Assembly (NCBI GenBank): GCA_019242475.1
Contig: JAFAVK010000127.1
Location: 124,001 to 188,000, forward strand
Reading direction: 5' to 3'
DNA length: 64,000 nucleotides
Source: Acidobacteriota bacterium
GTDB taxonomy: Bacteria > Acidobacteriota > Blastocatellia > Pyrinomonadales > Pyrinomonadaceae
In this document: one piece after another, positions 53,461 through 58,245 of the stretch
Layout of the letters: every line of letters begins with the position of its first letter
How positions within the stretch are numbered: position 1 is the stretch's first letter
The notes under the pieces: generated by a model
What the model was told of the DNA's origin: nothing
What the model saw: only the letters and a program-made list of their open reading frames with translations
The model's database searches: none
Position numbers and translations under genes: made by a program

Positions 53461-56091
53461 ATGTCGAACATAGACTACGCACATCTGCATCTTCATACGG
53501 ACTATTCACTTCTCGACGGCGCCATCCAGATCAAGCCGCTCGCCGAGCGCGTCAAGGAACTCGGGATGAAGGCGTGCGCGATGACCGACCACGGGAACAT
53601 GTACGGGGCGGTCTCCTTCTACAAGGAGATGAAGGCGCACGACGTGAAGCCTTTGATCGGCTGCGAGATTTATCTGGCCCCGGGCAGCCGCTTCGACAAG
53701 AATGAGGTGCGCAAAGGGGGCAAGCCCTACAACCACATGATCCTCCTCGCGAAAGACCGCGAGGGCTACCACAACCTCGTCCGCCTCACGTCCAAGGCGT
53801 TCCGCGAGGGCTTCTACCGCAAGCCGCGCATCGACCGCGAGCTGCTCGCACAGTTCTCGGGCGGGCTCATCGGGCTGTCGGCGTGCCTGTCGGGCGTGCC
53901 GCAGGAGCATTTGAAGGAGGGCCGGCTCGAAGAGGCGGCGAAGGCGGCCGGCGAGTTCGAGGACATCCTCGGCAGGGGAAATTACTTTTTAGAGATTCAA
54001 GACCACCAGCTCGAAGACCAGATCAAAATAAACCAGAGCCTCGTCGAGCTTTCGAAGAAGACCGGCATCCCGCTCGTGGCGACGAACGACGCGCACTACC
54101 TCTACCGAGAAGACTATGAGGCGCACGACGTGATGCTCTGCATCGGCACGGGCAAGACCGTCAACGACCCGAACCGGATGCGCTTCGGCGGCCCCGAGTG
54201 GTACGTGCGCTCGCCCGAGGAGATGGCCGAGCGTTTCAAGCACATCCCCGACGCCGTCACGCGCACCGTCGAGGTCGCCGAGATGTGCGACCTCAAGCTG
54301 CCCTTGGGCGAGAACCAGCTCCCCGTCTACCCCGTCCCGCGCGAGTTCGGCGACATGGGCGTTGACGAGTACTTCGAGAAGGTCGTGCGCGACGGGTACG
54401 AGAAGCGGCGCGAGACACTCTGGGACAGGATGCTCTCGGAGGGCACGCTCAAGCACTCGCTCGCCGAGTACCAGCAGCGCATCTCGACCGAGGTCGCGAC
54501 CATCAAGCAGATGGGCTTCCCCAGCTACTTCCTCATCGTCTGGGACTTCATCAAGTTCGCCAAAGACCGGCACATCCCCGTCGGCCCCGGCCGCGGCTCG
54601 GCCGCCGGGAGTTTGATCGCCTACTGCCTGGAGATCACGGACGTTGACCCCTTGCAGTACGACCTCCTCTTCGAGCGCTTCCTCAACCCCGAGCGCGTCT
54701 CGATGCCCGACATCGACATCGACTTCTGCGTCAACGGCCGCGCCGAGGTCATCAACCACGTCACGCAGCTCTACGGCCGCGACTCGGTCTGCCAGATCAT
54801 CACCTTCGGGACGATGGCCTCAAAGGCGGCCATCAAGGACGTGGGGCGCGCGCTCGACATGCCCTACGCCGACGTCGAGAAGATCGCCAAGCTCATCCCG
54901 CCCCCCGTCCGCGGCCGCAACGTCTCCATCGACCAGGCGCTCGAAACGGTGGCCGAGCTGAAGCAGGCGGTGGAGTCAGACCCGCAGGTCAGGAAGGTCA
55001 TCGACATCGCCAAGCGGCTCGAAGGCTGCGCGCGCCACTCGTCCGTGCACGCGGCGGGCGTCGTCATCAGCCCGAAGCCTCTGGAAGAGTTGATTCCCGT
55101 CGCGGTCAACAACAAGCAGGAGTTCACGACGCAGTTCGAGATGTCCGACCTTGAGAAGACGGGCATGCTCAAGATGGACTTCCTCGGGCTGACGACGCTG
55201 ACCATCATCGACCAGTGCTGCAAGACGATTAAGGAGCTGCACGGCCGCGACATCCGCTGGTCGGAGATTCCGCAGGACGACCCGAAGACCTATGAGTTGT
55301 TCGCGACGGGCCACACGGACGCGATCTTCCAGTTCGAATCTTCGGGGATGGCCGAAATCTGCCGCAAGCTCGGGCCGAAGTCCATCGAAGACCTCTCGGC
55401 CCTGAACGCCCTCTACCGGCCGGGGCCGCTCGACGGCGGCATGGTGGACGACTTCATCGACCGCTACCACGGCAAGAAGCCGGTCGAGTACCTCGTGCCG
55501 GAGATGCAGGACATCCTCAACAACACCTACGGCATTCTGGTTTATCAAGAACAGATCATGCAGCTCGCCCAGAAGCTCGGCGGCTACAGCTTAGGCGAGG
55601 CCGACCTCATGCGCCGCGCGATGGGCAAGAAGAAGCGCGAGGAGATGGCCGTCCACGAGGACAAGTTCATCTCGGGCTGCTCGAAGAACAAAATCCCCAA
55701 GAAGACCGCCCGCGAAATCTTCCGCCTCATGGCCCAGTTCGCGGACTACGGCTTCAACCGCTGCCTGACCGGCGACGCCGAGGTGGTTAACGCCGACACG
55801 GGCGAGATGGTCGCCATCCGTGACATCGCCGAAGGACGCTCCGACATCTCCCGCACGTACGGCTTCGACGGCGAGCGGGTCTTCGTTAACGAAATAGTCG
55901 AGGCTTTCGAGACGGGCGAGAAGGAGGTCGTCGAGATCGAGACGGAGGACGGCACGACCATCCGCTGCACGCTCGACCACAAGTTCCACACGGACGAGGG
56001 GTACTTGCCGCTGAGGGAGATTATCGAGCGCGGGCTCGAACTCAGCTTCTCGCCGGAGGTCGCGGAGTATGCCGCATCCCGCGTGGACTAA
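53461..56091 (+). CDS. dnaE: DNA polymerase III alpha subunit, N-terminal part fused to split intein IntN
   Basis: An 876-residue protein. Residues 1-767 are the N-extein: PHP domain (HLHTDYSLLDGAI at the start), polymerase catalytic core with PDIDIDF at 416-422 and a third Asp at 573 (LKMDFLGL), and the thumb/fingers region up to FADYGFNR. Residues 768-876 are an intein N-fragment of 109 residues starting Cys-Leu-Thr-Gly, with block B TLDH (in IRCTLDHKFHT, about 85-95 of the intein) and ending at TAA. The order LPLREIIERGLELS resembles the cyanobacterial DnaE IntN. The real start is ATG 53461 (MSNIDYAH), the normal DnaE beginning, not an upstream extension. Confidence 0.96.
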   Translation: MSNIDYAHLHLHTDYSLLDGAIQIKPLAERVKELGMKACAMTDHGNMYGAVSFYKEMKAHDVKPLIGCEIYLAPGSRFDKNEVRKGGKPYNHMILLAKDREGYHNLVRLTSKAFREGFYRKPRIDRELLAQFSGGLIGLSACLSGVPQEHLKEGRLEEAAKAAGEFEDILGRGNYFLEIQDHQLEDQIKINQSLVELSKKTGIPLVATNDAHYLYREDYEAHDVMLCIGTGKTVNDPNRMRFGGPEWYVRSPEEMAERFKHIPDAVTRTVEVAEMCDLKLPLGENQLPVYPVPREFGDMGVDEYFEKVVRDGYEKRRETLWDRMLSEGTLKHSLAEYQQRISTEVATIKQMGFPSYFLIVWDFIKFAKDRHIPVGPGRGSAAGSLIAYCLEITDVDPLQYDLLFERFLNPERVSMPDIDIDFCVNGRAEVINHVTQLYGRDSVCQIITFGTMASKAAIKDVGRALDMPYADVEKIAKLIPPPVRGRNVSIDQALETVAELKQAVESDPQVRKVIDIAKRLEGCARHSSVHAAGVVISPKPLEELIPVAVNNKQEFTTQFEMSDLEKTGMLKMDFLGLTTLTIIDQCCKTIKELHGRDIRWSEIPQDDPKTYELFATGHTDAIFQFESSGMAEICRKLGPKSIEDLSALNALYRPGPLDGGMVDDFIDRYHGKKPVEYLVPEMQDILNNTYGILVYQEQIMQLAQKLGGYSLGEADLMRRAMGKKKREEMAVHEDKFISGCSKNKIPKKTAREIFRLMAQFADYGFNRCLTGDAEVVNADTGEMVAIRDIAEGRSDISRTYGFDGERVFVNEIVEAFETGEKEVVEIETEDGTTIRCTLDHKFHTDEGYLPLREIIERGLELSFSPEVAEYAASRVD
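55762..56091 (+). other. Split intein N-fragment (IntN) coding segment
   Basis: Codons 768-876 of the dnaE-N gene. It has the block A opening CLTGDAEVV, block B (T-x-x-H), and terminates where natural split inteins are divided. The Cys at position 1 is the N-S acyl shift nucleophile. Confidence 0.93.
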
Positions 56092-56875
56092 AAGGCTGAC
56101 GCCGGAAGTCGAGGGCTTCATCGTCGAGCAGTACCGCGGCGGCCGGAGCGCGGGCGAGATTCTGAGGGGCATCCCCTTCAAGACGAAGAAGACCGTCTAC
56201 GACGTGCTCGAACGTCACGGCGTGCGGCGGCGCGGCGGCGTCGCCGACTACAAGAAGGGCTTCGACGAGGCGGCCTTCGCCGTCATCGACACGGCCGAGA
56301 AGGCGTACTGGCTTGGCGTACTCATCACGGATGGTTACGTGGTTGCGTCGAAACAGACTGGCTCGCCGGTCGTCGGATTGCAGATGATCGACCGCGAGGC
56401 GGCCGAAGGGTTCCGTGGCTTTCTCGGGCTACAACACCCGGTGCTGTGCATCGGGCCGAAGGGGGAGCGCCATCAGCCGATGTACCGCGCGGTCTGTCAC
56501 TCCCGCCGCCTGGCGCGCGACCTCGCGCGGTTCGGCGTCATCCCGCGCAAGAGTCACAGCACCTTCCTGCCGATCCTCGCGGAAGGGTTGATGCCGCACC
56601 TCCTCCGCGGACTGTTCGACGGCGACGGGACGGCGAGCCGCCGCGCGGACGGCCAGCTGCTCGTCGGCTTCTGCGGAAGCGAGCGGCTGGTCGCGGAGGT
56701 GCGGATGTGGCTCATCTGCCGCCTCGGCGTCTCGGACAACCGCGTCCACGAAAACGGCACGATACGTTACGTCCAGTGGTCGCACCGCTCGGACGTGCGG
56801 CGCATCGCGCGCTACCTTTACGGCGGCGGGCCGCGCCTGTCGAGGAAATACGAACTGCTCAGGGAATGTCTATGA
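56069..56875 (+). CDS. Free-standing LAGLIDADG homing endonuclease inside the split dnaE
   Basis: A 268-residue protein in the +1 frame relative to dnaE. The N-terminal part (about 8-60) is basic and helical with a helix-turn-helix look (SAGEILRGIPFKTKKTVYDV). Two LAGLIDADG motifs follow: YWLGVLITDGYV (about 80-91) and LLRGLFDGDGTA (about 178-189), each with the acidic residue needed for catalysis. The ATG overlaps the last 23 nt of IntN and is preceded by GGAGGT 8 nt upstream, so it is translated as a separate protein. The stop overlaps the IntC start (ATGA). It probably cuts intein-less dnaE alleles to spread the element. Confidence 0.93.
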   Translation: MPHPAWTKRLTPEVEGFIVEQYRGGRSAGEILRGIPFKTKKTVYDVLERHGVRRRGGVADYKKGFDEAAFAVIDTAEKAYWLGVLITDGYVVASKQTGSPVVGLQMIDREAAEGFRGFLGLQHPVLCIGPKGERHQPMYRAVCHSRRLARDLARFGVIPRKSHSTFLPILAEGLMPHLLRGLFDGDGTASRRADGQLLVGFCGSERLVAEVRMWLICRLGVSDNRVHENGTIRYVQWSHRSDVRRIARYLYGGGPRLSRKYELLRECL

Positions 56876-58245
56876 ACGTGAAGAAGACGAAGATCGTGCG
56901 CGTGACGCCCGTCGGGGTCGAGAAGACCTACAACATGGAGATGCGGGCGCCGCACCACAACTATTTTGTCAACGGGCTGCTGTCGGCCAACAGCCACTCG
57001 GTGGCCTACGCGCACGTGGCGTATCAGACGGCGTATCTGAAGGCGCATTACCCGGAGCACTTCTACGCGGCGGTCATGACGAACGTGACCGACGACACGG
57101 CGAAGATTTTCAAGTACGCGTCGGAGCTGCGGTCGCAGGGCATCAAGATGCTGCCGCCCGACGTGAACCAGTCGGGGCCGGGCTTCACCCCCGTCGAGCG
57201 CGCGGTGCGCTACGGGCTCTGCGCGATCAAAGGCATCGGCCAGACGGCCGTGGACGCCGTCATCGCGGCGCGGCAGGAGAAGCCCTTCCGCTCCATCTTC
57301 GACTTCGCCGAGCGCGTCGGCGAGAAGGGGTCGGGCAAGCGCGTCCTCGAAAGCCTGGTCTGCGCCGGCGCCTTCGACTCGCTCCGGCCCGAGGGCGAGG
57401 ACATCCACTCGTGGCGTGCGCGCCTCTTCGCGTGCGTGGACAGGGCGCTGGCGCGCGGCGCGACCGCGCGGCGCGACCGCGACAGCAAGCAGGTGGACAT
57501 GTTCGGCTTCGCCAACGCCGGCGCGCAGGAGGCGGAGGAGCCGCCGCTCCCCGTCACGGGCGTCGAGCCGTGGACGCACAAGGAGCTTCTGACGCGCGAG
57601 AAGGCGGCCGTCGGCTTCTACGTCTCGGGCCACCCGCTCGAAGACTTCACCGAGAAGATCGAGCAGCTCAACTGCGTCCCCATCTCGGAACTCTCGTCGG
57701 TCGAGCCGAACTCGCGCGTGAAGGTCGTCGGCATCTCCTCGGACTTCGTCGTGCGCAACACGAAGAAGGGCGACCGCTACGCGATGTTCCGCCTCGAAGA
57801 CCTCTCGGGCGCGGGCGTGAAGTGCGTGCTCTGGCCCGAGGCGTTCAAGACGAAGGGGTCGGACGCGGCCGACGACGCGATGCTCGTCGCCGTCGGGCGC
57901 TGCGAGGGCGAGGGCAGCCTGACCGTCGTCTGCGACGAGGTGACGGCGTTAGACCGCGCGCGCGTGCCGATGACGAACGGCAAACCGACCTACGCGGGGC
58001 GCCTGCGCGCCAACGCGCTCGTCATCGAGTTCCCGACCTGCGACGACGTGCTGCGCGCCGGTGAAACGGTCGCGGACGCCCTGTTGGCGCATCCCGGCGA
58101 CTGCGAGGTCTTCATCGACCTCCACCTGAACGAAGAGAACCTCACCGTGCGCGCGCGCACCGCGCAGTTCGCCCGCGTCGCGCCCAACAAGCAGTTACAG
58201 GAGACGCTCCTCGCCGCCGGAGTCCGCGTCCGTTGGGTGGAGTAG
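56872..58245 (+). CDS. dnaE: Split intein IntC fused to DNA polymerase III alpha, C-terminal part
   Basis: A 457-residue protein. Residues 1-40 are the intein C-fragment (MNVKKTKIVRVTPVGVEKTY ... ending LLSAN), with block F (NMEMRAPHHNYFVNG) and the terminal Asn preceded by Ala, as in cyanobacterial DnaE inteins. Residues 41-457 are the C-extein beginning SHSVAYAHVAYQTAYLKAHY, then the HhH tail (GLCAIKGIGQTAVDAV), the OB fold (VKVVGISSDFVVRNTKKGDR) and C-terminal domain. The start ATG 56872 is chosen over ATG 56866 because AGGGA at 56861-56865 gives 6-nt spacing only for the second. With the N-part, total extein length is 1184, normal for DnaE. Confidence 0.95.
   Translation: MNVKKTKIVRVTPVGVEKTYNMEMRAPHHNYFVNGLLSANSHSVAYAHVAYQTAYLKAHYPEHFYAAVMTNVTDDTAKIFKYASELRSQGIKMLPPDVNQSGPGFTPVERAVRYGLCAIKGIGQTAVDAVIAARQEKPFRSIFDFAERVGEKGSGKRVLESLVCAGAFDSLRPEGEDIHSWRARLFACVDRALARGATARRDRDSKQVDMFGFANAGAQEAEEPPLPVTGVEPWTHKELLTREKAAVGFYVSGHPLEDFTEKIEQLNCVPISELSSVEPNSRVKVVGISSDFVVRNTKKGDRYAMFRLEDLSGAGVKCVLWPEAFKTKGSDAADDAMLVAVGRCEGEGSLTVVCDEVTALDRARVPMTNGKPTYAGRLRANALVIEFPTCDDVLRAGETVADALLAHPGDCEVFIDLHLNEENLTVRARTAQFARVAPNKQLQETLLAAGVRVRWVE

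Follow-up and report, generated by a model that had tools for sequence, protein, structure and literature searches.

The locus studied here raises the question of whether a gene for the replicative DNA polymerase, dnaE, which is interrupted in the middle of an intein by an open reading frame (ORF) for a LAGLIDADG endonuclease, represents three functional genes or a single broken one, and whether such an element is mobile. It is situated in a stretch of 64,000 nucleotides (nt), hereafter the window, from an Acidobacteriota bacterium of the Pyrinomonadaceae, class Blastocatellia (assembly GCA_019242475.1, contig JAFAVK010000127.1, positions 124,001 to 188,000). With a probability of roughly 0.88, the sequence comparisons presented here favour a fractured dnaE, in which the sole replicase of the cell would be restored by trans-splicing and a free-standing homing endonuclease, encoded between the intein halves IntN and IntC, would have spread the element by homing.

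Three overlapping genes across one dnaE

Two host ORFs in the window are each fused to one intein half, and a separate endonuclease gene lies between the halves, as is characteristic of fractured genes (Table 1). The initial annotation had described this layout in detail, and its description proved correct to the base: the endonuclease ORF starts 23 nt inside IntN, with GGAGGT 8 nt before its ATG, and its TGA overlaps the ATG of IntC as ATGA at 56872-56875, with an AGGGA upstream at 56861-56865; IntN and IntC share a frame and the endonuclease ORF occupies the +1 frame. The AGGGA ends 6 nt before ATG 56872, and a second in-frame ATG at 56866 follows it directly. For the N-terminal part of DnaE, ATG 53461 is the likely start in an ORF open from 53182, and the NCBIfam models of DnaE begin at residue 42-43 of the IntC/DnaE-C ORF.

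The same three-gene block recurs in four genomes, G107, G104, G510 (= UBA7656) and G436, whose endonucleases are 90% (same genus), 76% (another genus), 60% and 57% identical to that of the window, respectively. In all five genomes the start codon of the endonuclease lies within IntN, in the +1 frame (overlaps of 23, 23, 23, 44 and 38 nt); a ribosome-binding site precedes it, and the stop codon falls on the start of IntC as ATGA. Pairwise ratios of nonsynonymous to synonymous substitutions (dN/dS) of the endonuclease amount to 0.05-0.21 where computable, synonymous sites being saturated for distant pairs, and under simulated neutral divergence of 10, 24 and 38% the open frame survived in 8%, 0.3% and 0.05% of the simulations, respectively. 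Since neutral divergence rarely keeps the frame open, and since start, frame and ATGA recur together with low dN/dS, the layout stands above chance. The earlier claim of three real overlapping genes is thus corroborated by the conservation of the three frames, the endonuclease start and the ATGA in five genomes, as well as by a short stub ORF with the same boundaries in a sixth genome, G127.

The endonuclease itself matches PHROG 4645, a phage LAGLIDADG endonuclease family, over residues 39-265 (E=9.3e-35). In its predicted structure (mean predicted local distance difference test score, pLDDT, of 69) the double LAGLIDADG domain is closest to I-DmoI (Z 12.7, root-mean-square deviation 3.7 over 157 residues), and the N-terminal helices of the model match a helix-turn-helix, the DNA-binding domain of GcrA (residues 3-52, Z 7.3). 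Assignment to the LAGLIDADG enzymes is based on this fold and on two motifs with acidic residues, the acidic positions of both being invariant in five homologues. No relative with a solved structure was found by sequence search, and in IMG/VR neither the endonuclease sequence nor its profile retrieved close relatives; a profile of the intein half retrieved a phage locus instead, described below.

Cys1, the His of block B, the C-terminal Asn and Ser+1 are present, and a profile built from relatives of IntN finds its matches in the PDB among the cyanobacterial DnaE inteins. Moreover, a single DNA_pol3_alpha domain (PF07733) per genome was detected in 11 of 11 element-bearing genomes checked, among them that of the window (91% complete), where the N-terminal part of the interrupted dnaE is the sole match. 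Possession of one DnaE per genome argues that trans-splicing must work, because an intein that failed to splice would leave the cell with no replicative polymerase.

In the mechanism that we propose, a single messenger RNA would give rise to three proteins, DnaE-N-IntN, a free-standing LAGLIDADG endonuclease with an N-terminal helix-turn-helix, and IntC-DnaE-C; a consensus scan of the locus found no internal promoter or terminator. The endonuclease would be translated from its own ribosome-binding site within IntN, and IntC probably by stop-start coupling at the ATGA. The intein halves would then assemble and trans-splice through Cys1 and Ser+1, restoring the only replicative polymerase of the cell, while the endonuclease would be expected to cut uninterrupted dnaE at the site coding for GFNR and SHS, so that repair of the break could copy the whole IntN-endonuclease-IntC block into the cut allele.

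Table 1. Coordinates of the split dnaE locus in the window (position 1 is the first nucleotide of the window).
Feature	Position	Strand	Evidence
DnaE N-terminal part (N-extein), end ...FADYGFNR	53461..55761	+	Pfam PHP, DNA_pol3_alpha, finger domains
IntN, 109 amino acids (aa), Cys1, TLDHKF block B, stop TAA 56089-56091	55762..56091	+	TIGR01445 intein_Nterm E=3.8e-12
GGAGGT ribosome-binding site of endonuclease, spacer 8 nt	56055..56060	+	Sequence; GGAGG, GGGAG or AGGAG in 5/5 endonuclease-bearing genomes
LAGLIDADG homing endonuclease, 268 aa, +1 frame relative to dnaE	56069..56875	+	Pfam LAGLIDADG_3 E=3.5e-11; PHROG 4645 E=9.3e-35; I-DmoI model match; purifying selection
N-terminal helix-turn-helix part of endonuclease, residues 12-52, probably DNA-binding	56102..56224	+	Model helices; GcrA domain match
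First LAGLIDADG motif YWLGVLITDGYV, residues 80-91, acidic D88 invariant in five homologues	56306..56341	+	Alignment
Second LAGLIDADG motif LLRGLFDGDG, residues 178-187, acidic D184 and D186 invariant	56600..56629	+	Alignment
AGGGA, possible ribosome-binding site of IntC, poorly conserved	56861..56865	+	Sequence
ATGA, IntC start codon overlapping endonuclease stop TGA 56873-56875	56872..56875	+	In 5/5 endonuclease-bearing genomes and the stub
IntC, 40 aa, end ...LLSAN, alternative start ATG 56866	56872..56991	+	Sequence
DnaE C-terminal part (C-extein), Ser+1, SHSVAYA...	56992..58245	+	Pfam HHH_6

Probable mobility of the element and competing explanations

Within the genus of the window, G108 possesses an uninterrupted FADYGFNR-SHS site (empty-site sequence GACTACGGCTTCAACCGCTCGCACTCGGTGGCC), and no intein remnant was seen in the empty alleles. 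The codon of Ser+1 is AGC in intein alleles of family f1 versus TCG in the nearest empty alleles. In the extein tree, which was built without the second upstream inteins of G510, G167, G179 and G038, the empty G108 is the sister of the pair formed by the window and G107, and G104 is placed among empty genomes; in the intein tree the window, G107 and G104 form one tight group. Ratios of intein to extein distance average 0.39 between families f1 and f2 (range 0.31-0.46) and reach 0.40 for the window and G104. Within f2 the ratio is 1.24, and for the endonuclease-free forms of family f3 it is 2.3-2.7, with 2.3 for G167/G179 against a genus with dispersed intein halves and 2.6 within that genus. 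According to these ratios the endonuclease-bearing forms look transferred and the endonuclease-free forms vertically inherited. The patchy distribution of the element, the existence of empty sites within the same genus and intein distances that remain far below the extein distances support horizontal spread, for which homing would be the natural mechanism. Spread of the split intein by homing had already been suggested from the window alone, and it gains indirect support from the same-genus empty site, the distance ratios and a phage element at the same site; the position of the endonuclease at the natural split point of the intein is likewise supported.

In another intein-free genome of the genus, G106 (L084), FADYGF-CAAHA-VAYA replaces FADYGF-NRSHS-VAYA exactly at the insertion site, possibly as a resistance change or as a scar of loss.

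It has to be considered that a contiguous intein, its endonuclease domain being in frame, may only appear split through sequencing or assembly frameshifts, or that the locus is a decaying pseudogene, as the window derives from a draft metagenome and its shared IntN/IntC frame holds just one stop across the endonuclease (2.1 expected). So low a number is expected from the high GC content, and with one stop in the window and 4-12 in the three relatives counted, the split appears fixed and not the outcome of one recent nonsense change. Given that identical frames, starts and overlaps occur in four other genomes, that the endonuclease is under purifying selection and that the interrupted dnaE is the only one of its genome, we reject this explanation as extremely improbable. 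A further possibility is that the split genes are real and the endonuclease is no longer homing and persists chiefly because it bridges the translation of the two halves or has some other function in the cell. Such a role would agree with G127, where the endonuclease body is gone and the stub still joins IntN and IntC, and with the inteins of the window and G107, which diverge about like their exteins (ratio 0.88). However, a bridge does not need a protein of 268 residues, conservation extends to the catalytic positions and the entire fold, at the low dN/dS given above, and the endonuclease-bearing forms carry a horizontal signal, all of which makes a purely non-homing role unlikely.

We consider it similarly doubtful that the intein was inherited vertically from ancient times and repeatedly lost with precision. 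Intein and extein trees do agree in broad outline, keeping the f3 genus together and G436 with G127, yet the f1-f2 intein distances are only 0.31-0.46 of the extein distances, the opposite holds in within-family and endonuclease-free comparisons, and the empty alleles are devoid of remnants. Several observations nevertheless weigh against a mobile fractured dnaE. The window and its endonuclease-bearing relatives are all draft assemblies, and slower evolution of endonuclease-bearing inteins, if it occurs, could bias the distance ratios. Long tracts of co-conversion were not seen beside the site, where G107 and G104 share just the Ser+1 codon and a few bases. Finally, the possible ribosome-binding site of IntC is weak and variable (GGTGA and AAGAG in relatives), and the proposal of translational coupling consequently depends on the conserved ATGA.

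A series of states in the Blastocatellia

A profile search with IntN in 162 genomes of the class retrieved the same intein at the same site, between FNR/K and SHS, in 15. Five of these genomes show the endonuclease-bearing state. G127 has lost the endonuclease by an internal in-frame deletion that left an ORF of 22 codons (MPRTAWNKRLTPEIEERITRYL), which starts inside IntN behind a purine-rich site and ends in ATGA on IntC. In G179 (L042) a gene for a putative nuclease of the Uma2 family (Pfam E=9.1e-15) replaces the endonuclease, its stop overlapping the IntC start, and in G167 the intein is a contiguous mini-intein, whose derivation by a single re-fusion would be more parsimonious than three independent splits. 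The remaining state is shown by each of the seven genomes retrieved from a Chloracidobacterium-like genus (G210, G235, G274, G487-G490), where IntN and IntC are unlinked and without endonuclease. In three genomes that consist of two contigs, one replicon carries both halves at a distance of 0.7-1.4 megabases, and in four drafts the halves fall on different contigs; the dispersed dnaE halves are presumably trans-spliced.

We lean towards the view, as the somewhat better supported one for a series that is unrooted and whose intein classes possibly differ in rate, that this site preserves a path along which a mobile split intein of phage type, equipped with an endonuclease, gave way to an immobile, dispersed, trans-spliced replicase, by way of a stub, a nuclease swap and a contiguous form. 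Such a path would be an independent replay of the cyanobacterial case and suggests that dispersed split genes arise from fractured genes by loss of the endonuclease.

The Uma2 gene has close paralogues at 55-69% identity, one at another place in G179 and seven in G167, and genes of this family may be mobile in their own right. G510 (L014), G167 (L041) and G179 (L042) possess a second dnaE intein some 70 codons upstream of the split site; it is contiguous and contains LAGLIDADG-like motifs, and its endonuclease region is shorter in G167. In G038 (L088) the split site is empty, and another contiguous dnaE intein lies further upstream, the insert of which looks like a different nuclease type.

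Phage relatives and known split genes

The phage locus retrieved by the intein-half profile, L123 (IMGVR_UViG_3300023184_000495), encodes a split dnaE-type polymerase, and between its intein halves lies a LAGLIDADG endonuclease that shares 30% identity with that of the window. Insertion site and the order of IntN, endonuclease and IntC are those of the window, whereas the genes are separated by gaps of 4 and 31 nt instead of overlapping, the N-terminal part of the endonuclease is longer and the polymerase is that of a phage. A similar endonuclease stands between pieces of dnaE-type polymerases in Alicyclobacillus phage MMB025 and Dulem virus 36 (L128:1540-5902, L129:1433-5329), near the same conserved motif. 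Unlike in the window, these endonucleases of the PHROG 4645 type are not accompanied by recognisable intein halves; an intron in the two polymerase genes is likely, and an Rfam search found no group I intron around the endonucleases. Judged from these sequence relatives, the element is likely of phage origin.

Directly upstream of the split polymerase of L123 lies a transfer-messenger RNA gene (L123:3280-3623). Another phage dnaE-type gene, L124:5296-6189 (IMGVR_UViG_3300031952_004490), carries an intein at the same site whose frame remains open across an ORF of 297 aa in another frame, with no stops where 25 were expected (0 of 5000 synonymous shuffles), an apparent case of dual coding. The inner ORF with its EIDGPHHF motif could be a nuclease; no Pfam or PHROG family matched it at a convincing score.

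The arrangement in the window is of a known kind, the fractured gene, in which a host gene is broken at the usual insertion point of an endonuclease and a separate endonuclease gene lies between the halves. The cases described so far are reported to be located mainly on phage-like metagenomic contigs and to carry Vsr-like or GIY-YIG endonucleases. The window differs from described fractured genes in that the only replicase of a bacterial chromosome is affected, the enzyme is of the LAGLIDADG type and the genes overlap at both ends, and also in that relatives with an intein at this site lack the endonuclease or have dispersed halves. In the literature examined, which leaves aside Dassa 2009, we found no description of the sole-replicase setting, the LAGLIDADG type, the double overlap, the stub, the nuclease swap or the dispersed end state, and nothing that joins Chloracidobacterium, dnaE and intein. 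The organisation as such has already been published, as far as the papers citing it convey (Dassa 2009, doi 10.1093/nar/gkp095, as cited in PMC7891396, PMC6801210), and the fractured NrdHF gene (AceL NrdHF) of a phage-like contig has a GIY-YIG endonuclease (PMC7891396).

So far, ideas on the origin of split inteins and on the reliance of an essential polymerase on joined halves have been based mainly on the cyanobacterial end state and on phage fragments. As the mobile form, the decay forms and the dispersed end state are found here in one class and at one site, the succession of these states and the part played in it by the endonuclease become directly testable in sequenced organisms; should the dispersed genus be Chloracidobacterium, some of these are cultivated. 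Protein engineering moreover gains several natural split inteins of DnaE, some of them probably thermophilic.

The split DnaE of cyanobacteria (Ssp, Npu) shares with the locus in the window the host protein, a related splicing domain and, presumably, trans-splicing, and has no endonuclease in its final state; its halves lie at distant loci, whereas those of the window are adjacent. It is the dispersed halves of the Chloracidobacterium-like genus that resemble it. The cyanobacterial intein is inserted between Y and CFN, four residues away from the point between FNR/K and SHS that is used in all 15 genomes, so that the dispersed form is to be regarded as a parallel and not as the same insertion. 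We know of no endonuclease-bearing intermediates of split dnaE in cyanobacteria, and what is new in the Blastocatellia is the series of states at one site in one class.
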